Assembly: GCA_012064415.1 (NCBI GenBank)
Contig: SSNU01000202.1
Coordinates: forward strand, 1 to 64,000
Source: Gyrodactylus bullatarudis
Lineage: Eukaryota; Platyhelminthes; Monogenea; Gyrodactylidea; Gyrodactylidae
DNA: 64,000 nt
Direction of reading: 5' to 3'
In this document: positions 33,201-55,370 of the stretch, one piece after another
Numbering within the stretch: position 1 is the stretch's first letter
Layout: the number at the start of each line of letters is the position of its first letter
Notes under the pieces: model-generated
What the model was told of the DNA's origin: nothing
What the model saw: the letters and a program-made list of their open reading frames with translations, nothing else
The model's database searches: none
Program-made: the position numbers and the translations under genes

Positions 33201-36200
33201 GTGTGCTTTCACTGGATCTCTTTGGCCTCAATTCTCTCCTCCAATATGATTACAAAGCGATCATTTTTATTGTTACATTTGGCTAATCAGACTTTTCACA
33301 TAAATTTCTTTTTGTGACGATAAACTTCTTTTCCTTTATTCAAACAGAGGGAAAATTGTTGTCTAGAGGCAAAGAGACCTTGAATAAATCATGATATGAA
33401 TATTTTTCTACCCAATTACACTCTATGAATATATCGTGAAAGCAACTACAAATAAATTTAAAAATCTCATCACGACAAGTTTTTGAATTTGTATTTTTCA
33501 CAGTGTACTAAATATATTGAAAAATATATATTTAAAAAATAAATATTTTCCCTCAAAGTCTCAACATTTTCTTATGATTCTCCGGAAACAGTATCAAAAG
33601 TAACACTTTTATCGATTAATTAAAAAAACTTTTGAAGACAAGAGTTGCCTGATTTCCTCAAAAATATTTTGAGCTTGCTGACTCGAAGTCATGCTAGTGT
33701 TAAGAACGAACGAAAGATTATTGGTGAATAAAGCTTTATTTTCGTCGGTTCTCTTCAGACCAAACACCGACTTTAGATATATTTATAATTAAGAAAGTTT
33801 CAAAGATGACCAGAGGGTCCCCTGTGAGTCCCCTATCTCCAACTCAAAACTTAGACCCAAAATCGGAAATTTTACCCTCCACCTCAACATCAGTTGATAC
33901 AAAACAATCCGAGAGCGGTCCGATGTTCACCTCTACACAAATAAATGGATCAAATAACGATGACCCAGCAACTATATTGGCAAAAACTCAAACCTCGACA
34001 TCAGTTGATATTAACACCTCCTCTAGTTGCAAATCATCAAATGAATCCAACTCACAAAACCCTAGTAACCAAATTTCTACTGTACCCCACGATGATCGAA
34101 AAAGGTATTTTTCTCAGCCAGAAGTACAAGCCCCTACTCCATCACGAAAAAGAAATCTGTCGACATCACCTAAGCAACAAAAAAGAAAGGGGAAACAGAG
34201 AAAACGATTACCAACTAACAATCAGACAATAGATGTATTCCTCACAGCCCCAAGAGTATGAGCACACTCAACCCCCATTGGTCAATCTTGGATGATTAAT
34301 TGCTATTCGTCAGATTTTATAATGTTCCTTAATCTTGCATGTATATAAATATATCTAAAGTCGGTGTTTGGTCTGAAGAGAACCGACGAAAATAAAGCTT
34401 TATTCACCAATAATCCTTCGTTCGTTCTTAACACTAGCATGACTTCGAGTCAGCAAGCTCGAAAAAAAACTTCGAGAAATTTTAAAACTCAAATTGGCTC
34501 GATTTTTCCATTTTTTGATTTATGAGGAATCAAACGTGATTCAGGATCATCAATTGCTACTCAGAGTTGGGAAATTTTGGAACAAAATAGAAATCACAAA
34601 TTTTGAAAGAAATTAGCAATGCGACATTAACCCCATTAGTTGCGGTGGTTGATGTAGGGTTCCTTTTTTTCATTACCGACTCGATAATGATGAACTTTTT
34701 AATTTTTAAAGACAAATATGAATATGATGAATGAACATATGATTAAATTAATTTTCAAATATTCATCCAAATCTAGCAGCTTTCTTACAAATATTTCCTT
34801 TATTTAGTAGGAATTTGGATTTAAAAGAATCTTTAGAGAGATTTTTAAAAAATTTAAAAATAAATGTTTACTCACCAAAACGCATAGGACATTTGGCGTT
34901 CTCTGAATATAACTGAATAAGGTGTCTTCATTGTTCAGACAGCTATGAGAATTTTTCTCAGAATATTGTACGGAAAGTAAATACTATTTGTCAACTTACT
35001 CATCGTTTGAGTAGAGAATTAACCTCACCGTTACTATGATGACATTGAATACAGCAGGTAAACCTATGAAATAGAATTTATTAGTCGTGGGTTTAATCAG
35101 AGCCAATATTTAATAGATGCATGTACTGTGTTTTAAATTCATAGTAGTTATAAAGTTAGCTGTCATGAAGATGGGAATTTACTATTTTTACTAAAATCTC
35201 TGAGTAGTCAGGAACACAAATATTTTTTTCGAATCCCATGATGAAATAAGCCCGATAAAAATTCAATTTGGCCAACATTTTTACCGATAGATATCGAAGA
35301 TTTGAAGAAATTGAATCTGGGATCAACACTCAAATTTGACTAAAAATGTTCATAGAAATTTGTCACCATTGGAAATTTTTTGAATTTTGCGATCATCACG
35401 AAGAAGAATGATCCAAAATTTATGGCTTTAACTTTTTCTTAGAGATGGCGAATTTCTCTCAACCTAAATGACCAAAATTAATTAGGGACTGTTTTTCCCA
35501 AGGATCAAGAAAGTTTTATCAAAACTAATATTACCCGATCCAGATCAAAATCAAAAATCTTGTAAATTTAGCAAAGTTTTTATAATGAAACTGTCATTCC
35601 TTTTTCAATCAGCCAAATTTGAAAAAAAGATCGAATGATATCGTATTTCAAGCTTTATAACAAAAATGAAGAGGTGATATTGATAAAAACTCTAATATAA
35701 ATCTATTTTAACTAATCCAAGAAGAATAATTCAACAAGAGGAAAATTCCCTGTTGTTGATTGAACTCAATACAATACTAATAGAAAGATTGTAGAATAAC
35801 TCAAGATAATATAGCTTGATAAAGGGAAACAATGAATTTGGAATAAATTAATACAAGTATCTTTATACCTTGAAGGCAGTGATTAAGTTTTTTTGTAAAA
35901 GAAATAGATTGAGTTTATTGCTACTCATATTTCAATTATTCATCAAATGAGAAAGAAAACTAATTGCAACAGTTGCTAATGCAAGTTTTAAGTGAAAGCA
36001 AAATTATAGAACTCCATAGCCTTCCATGTTTTTTAGACATTAAACCTACTAGCAAAGTGTGATCACAGGTAATCACTATATCCTTAAAAAATCTAACTTG
36101 ATGAGGATTGTAGAACTTATAATTCGCATTCAAATTGGTTTACGCCTGTAACTCCAGGTATGATTTCATCGACCAATAAATCATTTTTGTTCATTAAAGC

Positions 36201-42200: not shown

Positions 42201-45112
42201 GTGTCACTACTGATGAACCATGTACATTTAGTGAATAAAATTACCTTTTCTTATATACCTACAAATAAAATTGAAGTTCTAAATCCTTTTTATGTGTGTT
42301 GTTACAATAATTCTAAACAAAAAAACAATTATTTTAGAGATGCGTTCAATCATCGAAAAAACTTGATTTCACTTGATAATCCTTGCTCTTCAAACTAATT
42401 GATTTATGATTAGATAAATCAGTTTTTTCCTATCAGTATTTTAAATTTAAATGATTTTTGCTCTCAAGTGCAAAGTCTACAAAATAATAATAATTCATCA
42501 TCCATCATTTGATCAGTAATATTTGAAGGACCAAATGACTAACTTTCCTACTTTTTATTCTCCGTGAATTTTTCAACTTTTCCCAGTCTTGATCTAATTT
42601 TGAAGATAATCGAAAACTAAGCATATTTTCTTGTAAAACCATCCTTTTCGAGTTTGTTACAAAATCTCGATTGAAAATAATATTTGAACGATAATATTTA
42701 TAAATATAAAAATCTCATAATTTCTCTTCGGATCCTTGTTCACGATATTTGATGGAAGGCCTTCCTCTTTTACGTCTGACAGAATAATCCAACAATTTTG
42801 AGGGCATAATGTATTCAATGTCACAAGCATAAATGTTCATTGAATAAGCTGTTCTGAGCGATTCTGTTAGAAAAGTAATATGATTTGATATCTAAGTTCT
42901 CATTAAATATGACTGCAAGTAGATGAATACATGGATAGCCAGAAAAACTAATAGAACCACATGAACACCACACTTTTTCAAGATTCACAACACGTATGAT
43001 ATCAGAATTGACCTCTGAATCAACATTGAATAAATTCTAATTTTTGACGTTCAGAACTTTAAGCTTTCGAGCAGCAATTGATGCGGCCAAGAAGTAATCG
43101 TTAAATTTTGGACAAAATTCTTGTAGTGCAGTGTTTTAGAAAGTTGACCTTGTTTGAAACTTTTCGGGAGTCATCAAGCAAAATTTATAAATAGCATGAA
43201 ATGGATGAAGACTACGGATATCTTTGAGCACTGAGTTTGCAGACTCAGCCATGTTTGATGGCATATGCCCAAATCGAAAATGAAAACTGACCTAATTTTT
43301 AAAAGGATCCGAAGAGAAATTATGAGATTTTTATATTTATAAATACTGTATACTATTTTTGAAAACCATACTAGATTTGAACTATAAAAGATTTTTTTGA
43401 CTAAATTCTAAATACTAAAACTAAATGTGAACAAATGTAGACTAGCTCTGAACAAAAAATATTAAAAATAGACTAAATGTGAAAATTAAATACACGCAGG
43501 TAGGGAAAAGTCTAAATCTGATTAAATGAATGGTTCTATAGACTAAATCTGATTAAACGCATGTACTATGGACTAATTTTGCAAATACCTTTATTTGAGT
43601 TAGGTTGTAAACTCATTTGGAAGGTTTGGAGAACAACCACCGCATATTTGAGTGATAAACGTTATATTTCGCCAGGTCTCTTCAGACTCTACCTCGGTTA
43701 ACATATGAATACTAGTTATAAGCAATAAAAATGGTTGTAAAATAAGATTCTTCAGCTGTATTTAGTCATTTTGATTGAGCAGATGGTTAAATTTATATTG
43801 ATTTTTTCAGAGCTACTCTAACTGGTTATCAGGTTGTTTCAAAAATATGATTTAAAGTAATTTTTTCATAGATCAAATATAAAATGACGGTAGAAATTCA
43901 TTTTAAGTAGTAAACATTTTTAAATACAGAACTTTTCAAAGAATTAGGTTTTCTTATTGAAAATCTCTAAAATTCTATTCTAAAAGTTGCGATGGAATTA
44001 TCAGAAATTGATATCAGAGCAATTATTTATTCAGGGTCAAAGCTTGCCAGTGACTTATCCATAGGCTCACGTACGATGATTTTTTTATATATCGTCATGA
44101 CAAATGAAAAATGAATACACCTGAAGAATCAGAGCCGTCAAATATTTAATATTGAATTTTTATTGCAGAAAATTAAAATTACATACATTTCATCAACTGA
44201 AGAAGGTAGCGAAACGGGAGAGCCTTTGGAAAAAGATTGGTTAAATTCCAATTAAATTTTATTGATATTTTTCCACGAATTGAGTATTTTTGAATCCAGA
44301 TTAGGTATTCAAAGATATTTTTTCTTGATCTATTCTCTCACTTCAGATCAATCAGATTATCTAAAATTTTACTATCAGATTGGGAGTACCACTATGAAAT
44401 TTTAGCTTAATCTCTTAGCTATTTTTCTCCATCTTTTAATCCTCAATGAATTCGATGGAGGAAACATTTTGTTATCTCTCCTCGCGATTTACTAAGATAA
44501 ACTATTGTTGAAATCAATTCTAACAGCCTTTAAACTATACAGTTATTTAAGACTAGTGTAAAAACAACCCTAGAGATGATGGGAAATTTCACAATATTCA
44601 TTAGACTTGGACGAAATATTCCTTCCATTAGATATCTTGTATGGCGGGGCATTTCGAAATTACTAAAACTGAATTCCAACAATTAACTTCAGATTCCTTA
44701 AGATTAAAAAAAATATTTTCAGACGCCTTCAATGAATCGAATATTGTATTCTGAAATTTCGAAATGATTTCTCCTTTTATGAAATGCTTCAAATTATGAG
44801 TTCAGAATAAAATCATAGATAAACTTACAAACAACATTTTCTAACAGAACCTTGACAACTGGACTCTTCTTCGTTGTCAAGGAGACATTTCTGTTCAATA
44901 ATCATTTGATCTGAGAGATTTTGTTCAATATTATTCAGGAAATTGTAACAATATTTACATGCTTCAAGGCCATGACCAGAGGCTTTCACAACCCTACGAA
45001 TCTCATCTTCGTATTGTTCTGAGCCGATGGAAAATTTTTTCGCATCAAGAATAACATCCGCATTGCCGAATCGATCACGGCAAGTATTGGCTTCTAGAAT
45101 GGATTTTTTCAT
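27265..45112 (-). CDS. Family-B (secretin-type) GPCR, calcitonin/DH31-receptor-like, 10 exons
   Basis: A peptide-hormone receptor of the plasma membrane that usually couples to Gs. Exons (complement): 44829-45112, 38674-38819, 38497-38618, 37859-37947, 37669-37795, 36562-36691, 35000-35063, 34876-34942, 29069-29148, 27265-27589. Together they give 1434 nt (477 aa) with matching phases. The hormone-binding domain has KCC/DCC, CPLTWDGLSC, LQCPSYFG and FKQCTSNGTW. TM1 is NAIYLSFLSVTILTLIFAIL. TM2 is KLIIHLNLMSALVFRGLSEF. TM3 is NTVYLWLMLEGVFLQRLL. TM4 includes FGWG|LPAVFNV, ECL2 has DDCLN, TM5 is NVLCVLINCILLIDILRRIR, and TM6-7 is LARAAFILMPIFGLYWII...FANREVMSG. Two points are odd. No signal peptide precedes the first exon found, so an upstream exon is likely. 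The conserved Cys at the start of TM3 is also absent, which suggests a missed in-phase exon in 36692-37668. The DH31/calcitonin assignment is inferred from the Cys spacing of the ectodomain. Confidence 0.85.
28300..29068. other. GPCR intron, nothing recognised
   Basis: Intronic AT-rich sequence between the last two GPCR exons. There are short chance frames only. Confidence 0.4.
29283..29570. repeat. Interspersed repeat, second copy of the 9.4-kb unit
   Basis: Collinear with 9360-9640 over most of its length (CATTAGAA.GGAAATTTAT, AAGCTACAAAAATA, CTAACCAAAGTTA, GAACGTTTTTTTGAAAACCT, AGAAGATAAC). Intronic in the GPCR gene. Confidence 0.55.
29643..29765. repeat. Single arm of the foldback family seen at 59.6-60.0 kb
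   Basis: Contains TTAAGAAACACTACTCCTTT, CTTTCTTTTTCTACAGATAG, ATAGTCAGGTAGCAA, CTATGC.GAAC and GAAGAACTACTTGG. This matches the right arm and flank of the element at 59633-60025 with gaps. Confidence 0.55.
30535..30890. repeat. SINE-like / foldback repeat with a tRNA-like segment
   Basis: The left part (about 30540-30655: CGAATGTAACAGCTTAC, AATGGATC, TTACCAAATAAGACG, ATTACCTAAACACCTAGAA) matches the hairpin at 37435-37615. The right part contains, in reverse, the same CGCTGAA..TTAC..ATGGATCACAC block (about 30829-30868). Between them, at about 30715-30790, is a tRNA-like stretch ending in GATTCAAATCCCAG, which resembles a pol III B box. This suggests a tRNA-derived SINE-like family. Confidence 0.4.
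31004..31783. repeat. Large near-perfect palindrome with arms of about 340 bp
   Basis: Left arm 31004-31345 and right arm 31443-31783 are almost identical inverted copies around a spacer of roughly 100 bp. Arm landmarks are TCTTAAGATATAAAGCTATT, GGAATTCATGATTTTTAC, GAGATGGCGCGATTTTTTAA, GAGAGGAATCAAACGTTATT and TCATCATTAGACAAAGAAAA. The arm is a unit of an interspersed family. Related pieces lie near 34490-34560, 46090-46190, 52000-52110, 54345-54410 and 58850-59050. Near-identity suggests a young foldback element or recent inverted duplication. It lies in a GPCR intron, so the pre-mRNA would contain a long hairpin. Confidence 0.8.
33721..33763 (-). ncRNA. Hammerhead ribozyme, type I, left inverted end
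   Basis: Mirror of the right-hand motif: stem I UUGGU/ACCAA, core CUGAAGA, an 8-nt stem-loop II, GAAA, and stem III as the self-complementary AATAAAGCTTTATT. The cleavage-site C is at 33726 (minus strand). Core residues match the hammerhead consensus CUGANGA...GAAA...UH. Confidence 0.75.
33806..34261 (+). CDS. 151-aa Ser/Thr-rich protein with a basic C-terminus inside the hammerhead element
   Basis: An ATG-started 151-codon frame fills the space between the hammerhead ends. The first hundred residues are Ser/Thr/Asn/Pro-rich and probably disordered, with two copies of a TSTSVD motif. The last fifty are strongly basic (KRNLSTSPKQQKRKGKQRKR), resembling a nuclear-localisation or nucleic-acid-binding tail. 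It has no catalytic motif, signal peptide or membrane segment. The frame is uninterrupted while the arms are almost identical, so the element may be young. The protein could be an ORF1-like RNA-binding protein or a leftover N-terminus of a larger element ORF. No family was recognised. Confidence 0.5.
   Translation: MTRGSPVSPLSPTQNLDPKSEILPSTSTSVDTKQSESGPMFTSTQINGSNNDDPATILAKTQTSTSVDINTSSSCKSSNESNSQNPSNQISTVPHDDRKRYFSQPEVQAPTPSRKRNLSTSPKQQKRKGKQRKRLPTNNQTIDVFLTAPRV
34368..34410 (+). ncRNA. Hammerhead ribozyme, type I, right inverted end
   Basis: Stem I UUGGU (34368-34372) pairs with ACCAA (34406-34410). The core is CUGAAGA (34373-34379) and loop/stem II is GAACCGAC (closing G-C only). GAAA is at 34388-34391, and stem III AATAAA/TTTATT has a GC loop. 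The unpaired cleavage nucleotide is C34405. Every invariant core base is present. The weak point is stem II, which has one canonical pair plus mismatches, so activity would depend on tertiary contacts. Confidence 0.78.
36931..36985 (+). ncRNA. Degenerate hammerhead-like motif
   Basis: CTGATGA, GAACCGGT and GAAA occur in the right order and spacing. The upstream AAGCCGGTTTAACAGT is related to the conserved flank of the 53.95-kb copy read in reverse. Stem III (ATATAAACTTTTTTAGC) no longer pairs well, so this is probably a decayed relative. Confidence 0.4.
37041..37285. repeat. Foldback repeat with 48-bp arms
   Basis: Arm 37041-37089 (AAAGAAGGTGATACCAATTA, GTAATAAGAATATAG.GCTT) is repeated inverted at 37238-37285 with two or three mismatches. 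The loop of about 150 bp has no ORF. Intronic in the GPCR gene. Confidence 0.6.
37435..37600. repeat. Hairpin repeat, 47-bp arms, SINE-like family
   Basis: TGCTTAGGTAATATATCCCA...AATGGATT at 37435-37481 is inverted at 37553-37600. The loop contains GAATGTTACAGCTTACTAAT, shared with the repeat at 30.54 kb. No coding potential. Confidence 0.6.
39240..40308 (-). pseudogene. Decayed piggyBac-type transposase
   Basis: The minus strand starts at a TTAA (40309-40312) followed by CCCTCAGCC, a piggyBac-like tip. It then reads through an acidic N-terminus (PSSSENEEDILLDLEEEEQD) and ILRETPGLTKYS...ERDFFELFIDANMI. Near 39317-39565 it reads IPCDNFFSTFDLTKYLFSKK and VGTCRKLRTFLP, the conserved D-N-F-F-(T/S) catalytic-region block of DDE_Tnp_1_7 transposases. 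The frame is broken by stops and shifts, and part of the catalytic core is missing. The other terminus was not found, so the lower boundary is approximate. Confidence 0.75.
40710..42046 (+). pseudogene. Penelope-like element: reverse transcriptase plus GIY-YIG, frameshifted
   Basis: Frame 1 (40710 to about 41395) carries PLE reverse-transcriptase motifs: LDVSSLFPNVPIEETLD, the A/B-region DGIAMGSPLSPLLADIF, the catalytic YVDDTFIL and the C-terminal SLSFLDVKLTR. A frame change near 41390 passes into a second frame (LGKRIRRIASPEEWPKEIEE) that reaches the GIY-YIG domain at 41755-41900 (VYKFQSDCEASYIGRTIRKL) and ends NLQLPWPM at 42046. The N-terminal third of the RT is missing at about 40705. One frameshift and the 5' truncation make this copy inactive. 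It shares its C-terminus with the fragment at 1-300. Confidence 0.9.
42047..42240 (+). mobile_element. PLE 3' tail with hammerhead-like relic
   Basis: The tail shares CACTGTTGCTATTTATTG with the other two PLE tails. At 42207-42236 TCACTA / TAGTGA can pair as stem I around CTGATGA, and ATGTACAT forms a stem III. The GAAA segment present in the 63.15-kb copy is deleted here, so it cannot be active. Confidence 0.5.
42692..43356 (-). pseudogene. Mutator-like (MULE) transposase remnant with SWIM finger and inverted ends
   Basis: Inverted repeats of about 46 bp (TATTTATAAATATAAAAATC...CTCTTCGGATCCTT) at 42692-42738 and 43310-43356 bound the element. On the minus strand the interior reads MAESANSVLKDIRSLHPFHA and later NLEKVWCSCG..SFSGYPCIHLLAV. 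The latter has the C-x-C...C-x-H arrangement of the SWIM zinc finger found near the C-terminus of MULE transposases. Several stops and no DDE core mean an internally deleted, dead derivative. Confidence 0.6.
43650..43689 (-). ncRNA. Solitary hammerhead-like ribozyme motif
   Basis: Minus strand: stem I GAGU/ACUC (4 bp), CUGAAGA, stem II GACCUGGC (G-C, A-G, C-G), GAAA, stem III ATA..A/U..TAT with one mismatch, and cleavage C at 43654. The core is complete, and this copy has the best stem II of the family. No flanking ORF was seen. Confidence 0.6.
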
Positions 45113-53230: not shown

Positions 53231-53936
53231 CGCCGCTCAATTCCAGGAGATCAATAAATGGGTGGTTTACGAAGTATTTTCTGAGGCTTGAATGAATAAT
53301 AATGAGTTGCTAAAATTAGGTGTGAGAGAACTATCACTGTCGGACTTTAAACGTTAAAATTTTGCATGTTAAAAAGTAACCAAAATTGTATTCTGGTCTA
53401 CGCATACTTTGGTTGAACGACAAAAACTGTAGATTGCAAAATTAAGTGAAGTAGATCTTGTATCGAATCAGATAAAGGAATGCTAATTCAACCATAATTT
53501 GCATACAAAATAGAAGCTTATAGATCTTATTCCCAAGTGTTTTTGGATTATTTTCTAATCCTTTCTGTATTTCTCGAGATTACAATTTAGAAGCAGAGTC
53601 AGACTGTTTTGTTTCAGAGTCTTTGATATGAACATTTCATTCAGGGTCATAAAACTTTTTACTGATTTTCAAGCTGTAAAAAGAATTTAATTTCATAATT
53701 ATGACCATTTCTTATCTAATTTCCTTGTCTTATCGTGATCATCCTACTTTTGATCACTTTCTCATATTGAAATCGAAATCAATTTAAAACACTGAAAAAT
53801 AGGTTATGGAAAATCAAAAGTTACTCTTGATTCTTTCAAAAAGTAGACAAATTCTTTGTAGCCATATAGAATTGATTCAGCTTCAAAATGAGGTACTCTA
53901 TGTGCTCAAATAAGATTTGAAGACAAGACGAGTATT

Positions 53937-53977
53937 TAGTGATAAAGCTTTTATTTCGCCGGATCTCGTCAGACTCT
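53937..53977 (-). ncRNA. Solitary hammerhead-like ribozyme motif
   Basis: Minus strand: AGU/ACU stem I (3 bp, with an alternative GAGU/ACUC pairing), CUGACGA, GAUCCGGC, GAAA, stem III ATAAA/TTTAT with an AGC loop, and cleavage C at 53940. The adjoining ACACCGACTTGATTTATATA matches the flank of the 33.7-kb element, so the two are related. No second arm was found nearby. Confidence 0.55.
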
Positions 53978-55370
53978 TACACCGACTTGATTTATATATT
54001 AGATGAATTAACAAAATTTGCATCCTCTCATTGGCTGGTTTGGAAACGTTTATGGGGAGGGAGTGGTGTTTCTCTTTTGTTAGTGAGCAGTTACCTACAT
54101 ATTTGGTCTTCTTTTTATGTATGGATCAATTGGTAACTGTCCACTTTCTCTTCTCCTCTTCCTGCTTGTTTTGCAGCTTGCATTGGACACTGTTTTCGAG
54201 TTGCTAATTATAGGTTGATTAATTAAATTTGATTATAATCAACTTCCGTTGATTTCTTGTTTTTGTCACTTGATGTCTCATCCACGTATGTTGCTGGGGC
54301 GGTGATATTGCTGCCAATTAGCTGATTAGTAGTGTCTTCATAATTTTATTGATTTCAAATTGAGTTGTTTAGGACCAAAATTAGACAAGGAAAATATTGA
54401 AACTTGGATGAACTACATTCGAATTCTTGATAAAAGAATTGAAAATTTTGTAAAAATCATAGATCTCATTTATAAACAAAAAAATAGATTCCTTGTTTAT
54501 ACCAAACCGACTTTATAACTTGTAATAATTTTCACAAGATGTTGTGTTACAATTTGTATAAATTCTGTATCAAAATAAGAATATACACAAGAAAACCGAT
54601 TGGAGACCAGCTTATCAACAATTTCAGATGGTGTAAAGTTATAAATAATCTCTTTTAAAGGATGTTCCCCGATAACTTGAACAATATTGGGGTGCAACCA
54701 AGTAGTTTTCTAGATATTCGACACAAAAACAGAGATTCTTGCGAATAGGGTAAAATAAATAAAACATTTTATTACCAAATTGTACATAAATCCCTTGAAG
54801 ATCTGGAAATTTAACTTTCCATTGTTCATCATTTGATGTGATAAAAAAATAGTTTCAAATTCACACTTCTCTATGAATCTTCTCTCTCTGTGTGAATGAA
54901 TATGAATAATTTTTTACCTTTGGCTATCCATAAGATTCCTTTGAAATATGATCCCTAGGCAAAATTCTATACTTTCTCAGAGAGCTTTAATTTTATGATA
55001 AATCTTTTTCTTTTTATACCTCACGTAATTCCGGAGAAGTAGTTTGTAAGCAAAATTTTGATGTGACTCTTTTTAGAATTCATCAACCAAGATTAGTGAA
55101 ACCAGAAACTTTTTAGAATTCATCAAGTAGTTATTCAGGAAGATATTAGGCATAGATTGACTTTAACGTTGTTCGCTTGATTTGAATTAAAAATTATAAG
55201 AACCCATTTCAATTTCTCATATTTTGAGTTTTTGTTAATTTCGAAGATTTGGAGTGGTATCTGGAATCATAATTAGACAAGAGAACTTTTCTTGAAAGGG
55301 AATTTCTTTAGCAGAATTCGAATTTCTTGTTTAAAGCGTATAAGTTATAACCAATAATTGGGTCAAGTTA

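Follow-up and report, generated by a model that had tools for sequence, protein, structure and literature searches.

A candidate 5'-truncated Penelope-like insertion with predicted hammerhead ribozymes in both inverted ends in Gyrodactylus bullatarudis

The window analysed here is a stretch of 64,000 nucleotides from the monogenean flatworm Gyrodactylus bullatarudis (assembly GCA_012064415.1, contig SSNU01000202.1, positions 1 to 64,000 of the forward strand), and between positions 33632 and 34462 it carries what we take, with a probability of about 0.97, to be one 5'-truncated insertion of a hammerhead-bearing Penelope-like element (PLE). An earlier note, made from the letters alone, had seen a compact element at 33671..34460 with a hammerhead in each inverted end, and had proposed a distinct non-autonomous family lacking a reverse transcriptase (RT) and belonging to no standard described type. 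The element itself now appears ordinary and the proposed new transposon type is explained away. Its interest lies elsewhere: the origin of inverted PLE copies is debated, with self-priming on antisense RNA argued in passages of one study (PMC3846280) and extension of both strands in vitro in passages of another (PMC11167929), and a genome with many short inverted copies that retain both ends makes the mechanism testable by counting. These and the other papers named below are cited for the passages that were compared with our data.

The insertion and its borders

The inverted arms (33667-33800 and 34331-34464) are 94% complementary over 134 nt, and 98.3% when taken over 121 nt, in keeping with the near identity of the ends remarked on before. 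The inverted layout described earlier likewise stands, but the true insertion is longer on the left, starting at 33632, and is bordered by a 10-nt direct repeat, AAAAAAACTT, at 33622..33631 and 34463..34472, which we read as a target-site duplication (TSD). The left arm (33632..33787, minus strand) is interpreted as an inverted pseudo-long-terminal-repeat (pLTR) end of 156 nt that faces outward (reference distance 156 to 0 from the tail end). Its outermost part (33632..33666, minus strand) forms a tail that continues the start of an open reading frame (ORF; MTSSQQAQNIFEEIRQLLSSK), and the matching frame in the tandem copy at L039 runs on into the PLE ORF. The right arm (33785..34462, plus strand, its border placed to within 2 nt) would be a 5'-truncated PLE 3' region with a tail-less end, closing on the ATG and opening codons of the next PLE ORF (34439..34462, plus strand), cut at what we term the short RT start site. 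The two arms meet head to head in a 3-nt overlap or microhomology (33785..33787), which the other scored copies match on one side only.

The single ORF of the insertion (33806..34261, plus strand) encodes a 151-aa product that is Ser/Thr-rich and basic, as had been noticed. Its identity, which had been left as unknown, is best explained as the C-terminal end of the PLE polyprotein, beyond the GIY-YIG region, and not as a separate gene, because the same 151 aa (99% identical) form the end of a 537-aa ORF at L010 (C455) with RT motifs, GIY-YIG residues and relatives that carry RVT_1. A six-frame genome search with the 151-aa product, in which 150 of 366 candidates were scored, recovered at least 153 matching places, several of them within long open frames. 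The longer relatives that share the 3' end of the window copy encode RT and GIY-YIG regions. L010 bears on the suggestion in the earlier note that full-length relatives be searched for an RT, and the link that note drew between hammerhead ends and Penelope terminal repeats gains support from the PLE identity. PLE membership is accordingly proposed from a domain match for the RT and from aligned residues for the C-terminal GIY-YIG region of the longer copies. Eight aligned sequences have Y, C, C, Y, G, T, R and H invariant in the latter region, which we take to be of the GIY-YIG type. The label also follows usage in PMC11167929. A search of 5.8 billion proteins returned eight relatives, the best being an RVT_1-bearing protein of a trematode, 33% identical across 66% of the query, and a PDB search gave four weak matches (best E 0.016). 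Two results count against this assignment: the RVT_1 match of the L010 ORF (E 1.6e-4), at 21.9 bits, falls under the Pfam cut-off of 29.6 bits, and no Pfam GIY-YIG model matched the PLE protein, leaving the endonuclease call to the aligned residues. The 151 aa alone gave no match in a Pfam search. As a separate observation, the endonuclease region of the PLE protein (L010:7598-9211) is followed by a basic, Ser/Thr-rich extension of about 150 aa, which is missing from the seven database relatives in the alignment.

The hammerheads

Each arm contains a type-I hammerhead core reading outward (34373-34405 on the plus strand and 33726-33758 on the minus strand), with the elements CUGANGAG and CGAAA. 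Stems I (UUGGU/ACCAA) and III (AAUAA/UUAUU) have 5 bp each, with stem II reduced to a single G-C pair in the Rfam alignment. Together with the 5' box described below, the hammerheads occupy 34361..34410 (plus strand), with predicted cleavage after C34405, and 33721..33770 (minus strand), with predicted cleavage after the C at 33726. The invariant core bases, both stems and the cut position are those that the earlier reading had given. A strict core pattern with 17 fixed bases occurs at 129 places (62 + 67) in the 77.3-Mb assembly and nowhere in a reversed control, which argues that the window hammerhead is not a product of chance. A looser pattern for sister families (CUGABGAG) finds 364 places against one in the control.

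Model searches and folding gave no such support. The covariance search proposed earlier yielded no match reaching the Rfam gathering score in the window. RAGATH-1-hammerhead (RF03152), the sole hammerhead model at E up to 10 there, shares the type-I layout and the single-pair stem II, but the window scores 17.4 bits against a cut-off of 56.3 and matches model positions 25-77 only; at 14 further loci no hammerhead was matched at E<=1. Folded on its own at minimum energy, the RNA adopts a competing hairpin and not the hammerhead, and in single-copy folding 61, 46 and 76 of 200 shuffled sequences equal or better the real one. The case for a hammerhead therefore stands on the core, the copy number and the covariation between families, which together make the type-I identity, with its conserved core and both stems I and III, well supported, self-cleavage being predicted. 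Were either strand of the window copy transcribed, one sense hammerhead would lie near the 3' end of the RNA; we see no sign of expression of this copy or of a purpose for it.

Stem I changes on both strands from family to family (UUGGU/ACCAA, AAGGU/ACCUU, UCACA/UGUGA, UGAGA/UCUUU and AGAGU/ACUAU), with 23 of 25 pairs holding across five chosen families, a value equalled by one of 120 pairings, the true one included. A second set of changes involves loop II, whose positions 2-6 are complementary to a box lying 11-14 nt 5' of CUGA, that is, 5' of stem I (e.g., ucggu/ACCGA, ccagg/CCUGG, ccggg/CCCGG, ggcau/AUGCC and gacau/AUGUC). In a test of 22 distinct loops, 83 of 110 possible pairs are complementary, against a shuffled mean of 68.8, and 2 of 20000 shuffles do as well. 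The helix is uneven, with eight of 27 rows pairing at all five positions and two at one or two positions, and a smaller five-family test of it was weak (4 of 120 permutations as good). These pairs were counted by script at set distances, as the MAFFT alignment A3 places the 5' box wrongly in some rows. The helix may represent a loop I-loop II contact, or else a hairpin that competes with the core, the lone RNA folding to that hairpin. Contacts between hammerhead loops I and II can indeed take the form of a helix (PMC10085705, in the passage cited), while PLE hammerheads have been described, in passages of PMC7761336, as minimal variants without helix III or loop-loop contacts; a covarying loop II helix would qualify that view, and the covariation with the 5' box may be a new detail.

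The tandem unit and two types of 3' end

On C308 two plus-strand hammerheads lie 3,340 bp apart, with an ORF start and RT-encoding sequence, partly with stops, between them; the frame opens at the ATG after the first hammerhead and continues as MTPGQQPKNIFEEIRQLMSSN. From this layout we conclude that the pLTR holds the hammerhead and the first ORF codons, as in published PLEs in which the pLTR includes the ORF start (passages of PMC3846280 and PMC11167929), and that the pLTRs here probably derive from a tandem arrangement. The stretch from L039 to C308:18919 can be described as one PLE unit of a direct tandem, some 3.3 kb long, whose ORF opens immediately 3' of the hammerhead and whose frames are partly broken.

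Among the copies examined, most outer ends belong to one of two classes: short ends lie about 26-28 nt into the ORF, and long ends, which include the tail, about 60-64 nt. These positions are accurate to within a few chance matches to the AT-rich flank, and isolated cases occur at 9, 37, 44 and 55. C471, which ends at ATG+55, was scored as long, and any end no further than ATG+35 as short, since bases past about +28 belong to the AT-rich flank. In the window copy the left arm is long-ended and the right arm short-ended, and the predicted cut is 33 nt upstream of the matching ATG (34439). One end only is seen at 13 of 20 loci in one set. In the comparison of end types, 13 copies with one end seen divide into seven long and six short, a split from which L009 (contig edge) and L039 (tandem) were left out and to which C111 contributed no end; masked stretches conceal part of the 5' side in L014, L025 and L026. 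Such single-ended, 5'-truncated copies have the same 3' end as the window copy, and at least 8 nt of TSD were found in 5 of 12 of them, two of the 12 having one flank masked; the corresponding count for controls was 6 of 132. In vitro, the tail corresponds to the sequence between two RT start sites (PMC11167929, passage on start sites), and an optional tail equal to the ORF start, as PLEs have at their 3' ends, is likewise what the end classes here suggest.

Inverted pairs across the genome

We asked how hammerheads are oriented when another lies within 5 kb. Among the first 100 of 129 places for this family there are 15 outward pairs, one direct pair and no inward pair; among 98 listed of 364 places for sister families, two overlapping double entries having been left out, there are 11 outward, two direct and one inward. 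The arms of 12 inverted pairs range from 57 nt to at least 1,250 nt, differing copy to copy, and they meet within 4 nt in eight of the 12; since arm lengths and junctions differ in this way, the pairs each appear to have arisen on their own. In this family and its near relatives, 17 of 20 inverted pairs combine a long end with a short one, and no pair has two long or two short ends, the left end of C300 being taken from the set of 12 pairs; by eye, eight of nine pairs from other families follow the same pattern. At least 9 nt are common to both borders in 11 of 16 inverted pairs, compared with 5 of 240 mismatched combinations (four of the 20 pairs were left out, as the end patterns did not find both ends), consistent with the short, variable TSD at AT-rich targets expected of a PLE.

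The arms of the window copy differ at one single-nucleotide polymorphism (SNP), AATC[T/C]TTCG, with T in the left (long) arm and C in the right (short) arm, and C250a shows the same split with the same assignment. The C allele is the common form, T being present in the left arms of these two copies and at one further locus, C122. The split hints at two RNA templates, or at two pLTRs within one tandem RNA, although two cases are few.

How the inverted copies may arise

We consider it likely that both cut target strands prime reverse transcription on PLE RNA and that the resulting cDNAs are joined head to head. Under this model the PLE protein would make staggered cuts, about 10 bp from each other, in the two strands of an AT-rich site, and both 3'-OH ends would prime synthesis. 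For the window copy, one cDNA would begin at the long site (near codon 21 of the ORF, so that the tail is retained) and extend for 156 nt, and the other would begin at the short site (about codon 9) and extend for about 680 nt; the two short cDNAs would be joined via the 3-nt microhomology, and gap filling would yield the 10-bp target duplication. The joining of two early-stopping cDNAs, which we infer from the end structure, would give the outward 3' ends, the unequal arms, the microhomology and the TSD together. The outward hammerheads would then be the two 3' ends of the element and therefore no designed inverted pair. The ribozyme of a tandem copy, situated just 5' of the ORF start, could cut a multimeric RNA into units, and it would sit in the pLTR because it is part of such a multimer. 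The RNA that was copied would have been uncut at the predicted site, since the insertion ends lie past the cut and neither end type falls on it.

Several observations pull the other way. The arms are 27, 71 and 106 nt apart in L028, L042 and L043, and the junction of L021 is not resolved. End types are irregular in C239 (44/26), C204 (long/37) and C102 (long/9), and C125, from another family, is symmetric over the stretch read. Fewer than 9 nt are common to the borders in 5 of 16 inverted pairs. In 10 of 16 pairs the arms show no difference across 90 nt, and two templates are consequently indicated in few pairs only. Finally, the start sites used in vitro by the Poseidon element of Anolis carolinensis, PAc, did not differ between the top and the bottom strand (PMC11167929, passages on PAc); the pairing of end types would for this reason be set per insertion and not per strand.

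The alternative that deserves most attention keeps the PLE origin and derives the inverted arm from self-priming or template switching on an antisense transcript, in place of priming by both target strands. It is favoured in passages of PMC3846280 on account of palindromes at inverted junctions, and the U6 snRNA between the two arms of L062 (see below) hints that an RT of this kind can change template. We nonetheless hold it to be rather unlikely: both arms stop at end types known from single 3' ends, the PAc protein extends both strands (PMC11167929, as above), the arms of two copies carry different SNP alleles and the window junction has a 3-nt overlap.

A self-standing RT-less family, with inverted hammerheads around an ORF of its own and moved in trans, was the reading first proposed, and other copies do resemble it in outline, with PLE 3' sequence lying between two hammerheads that face outward. 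When a 90-bp query across the window junction was compared with the genome, and the best 40 of 193 candidates were scored to give 41 matches, the window's own match alone spanned the junction; the remaining matches end at query base 43 (five, at 89% identity, reach base 56) or begin at base 41 or 43. Judged by these scored matches, the window copy looks like a single event. With arm lengths and junctions varying among the 12 pairs, the ORF equal to a PLE C-terminus, the same 3' end on single-ended truncated copies and RT encoded by longer relatives, we rejected a distinct family of this kind as highly improbable; truncated Penelope copies with inverted pLTRs are, moreover, already on record (PMC3846280, in the part compared). 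A DNA transposon or miniature element with fixed terminal inverted repeats and a fortuitous hammerhead-like string would share the inverted ends and the TSD, but was rejected as scarcely credible in view of arms whose length varies among copies, from 57 nt up to 1,250 nt or more, the one-ended loci and the insertion's one ORF, whose protein is that of a PLE RT.

Returning to priming by both target strands, the 17 of 20 pairs of opposite type, with none of the same type, set beside single ends that divide seven to six, lead us to predict a coordinated two-strand reaction. We would go further only tentatively, holding the following joint proposal at somewhat under even odds: that regular inverted PLE insertions all use both RT start sites, one per target strand, in a coordinated double target-primed reverse transcription by a dimeric complex with two RNAs, the tail marking the strand and start site, and that the host's ribozyme is non-minimal, being held together or shut by the helix between loop II and the 5' box.

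Relation to known elements

PLEs in print have inverted pLTRs, 5' truncation, a tail and a TSD (PMC3846280), and the closest parallel in those passages is Pen2 of Adineta vaga, which shows 5' truncation, inverted pLTRs, partial tandems, a pLTR containing the ORF start, an optional tail of about 30 bp on one pLTR and TSDs of 8-10 bp in some copies. PMC3846280 makes no mention of a hammerhead (0 occurrences), whereas here there is one in both pLTR ends. PAc is similar in its hammerhead at the pLTR-ORF junction, its AT-rich targets, its internal initiation of reverse transcription at two positions within the beginning of the ORF and the cutting and extension of both strands (PMC11167929, in the sections consulted); set against PAc, the ATG here follows the predicted cut at a distance of 33 nt, and the DNA ends are located about 26 and 61 nt inside the ORF. 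According to the same sections, PAc ribozyme mutants still insert, and the PAc ribozyme cut only when protein was added. Non-LTR retrozymes of metazoans resemble our copies in having type-I hammerheads in mobile repeats of animals, but as described in passages of PMC7761336 they are non-coding tandem repeats of about 150-300 bp; the window copy, with its inverted arms and PLE coding sequence inside, is not such a non-coding unit between direct hammerheads, and we set that candidate aside. Among the open-licence titles listed, none concerned hammerhead PLEs of monogeneans. PMC3846280 remarks that one of the inverted pLTRs may optionally carry the tail; beyond this, the literature passages compared do not state opposite-type ends as a rule, and their occurrence in 17 of 20 inverted pairs may be a new detail.

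Other PLE traces in this genome

The genome is rich in PLEs, with 3196 first-look candidates for an RT-endonuclease protein, of which 81 were scored, beside the sister-family hammerhead matches given above; about six PLE subfamilies can be told apart by stems and loops. A Rieske protein encoded beside the copy at L014 has its best named match, at 76%, in the flatworm Cichlidogyrus casuarinus; among the best 120 of 7992 matches, a tapeworm (73%) and a fluke (67%) also score high, as do insects and one fungal record, which points to a flatworm host, perhaps a monogenean. Within the window a further minus-strand hammerhead of another subfamily (loop II ACCUGG) at 43634-43707 is probably a PLE remnant, and one more, again of another subfamily and on the minus strand, at 53911-54019 adjoins tail-end-like sequence (GTCTTCAA). 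Between sister-family arms at L061:189-278 there is a long near-perfect hairpin, which matches a plant miRNA model weakly (32.2 of 71 bits) and is probably the inner part of two inverted arms. At L062:174-276 (C154:241050-241620) a U6 snRNA (RF00026, 91 bits) that has lost its 5' part and ends in a T-run begins where the left arm of a head-to-head PLE pair ends, with about 90 nt of unassigned sequence separating it from the right arm. This looks like a template jump onto U6, comparable to that seen in the L1/U6 chimeras of mammals.
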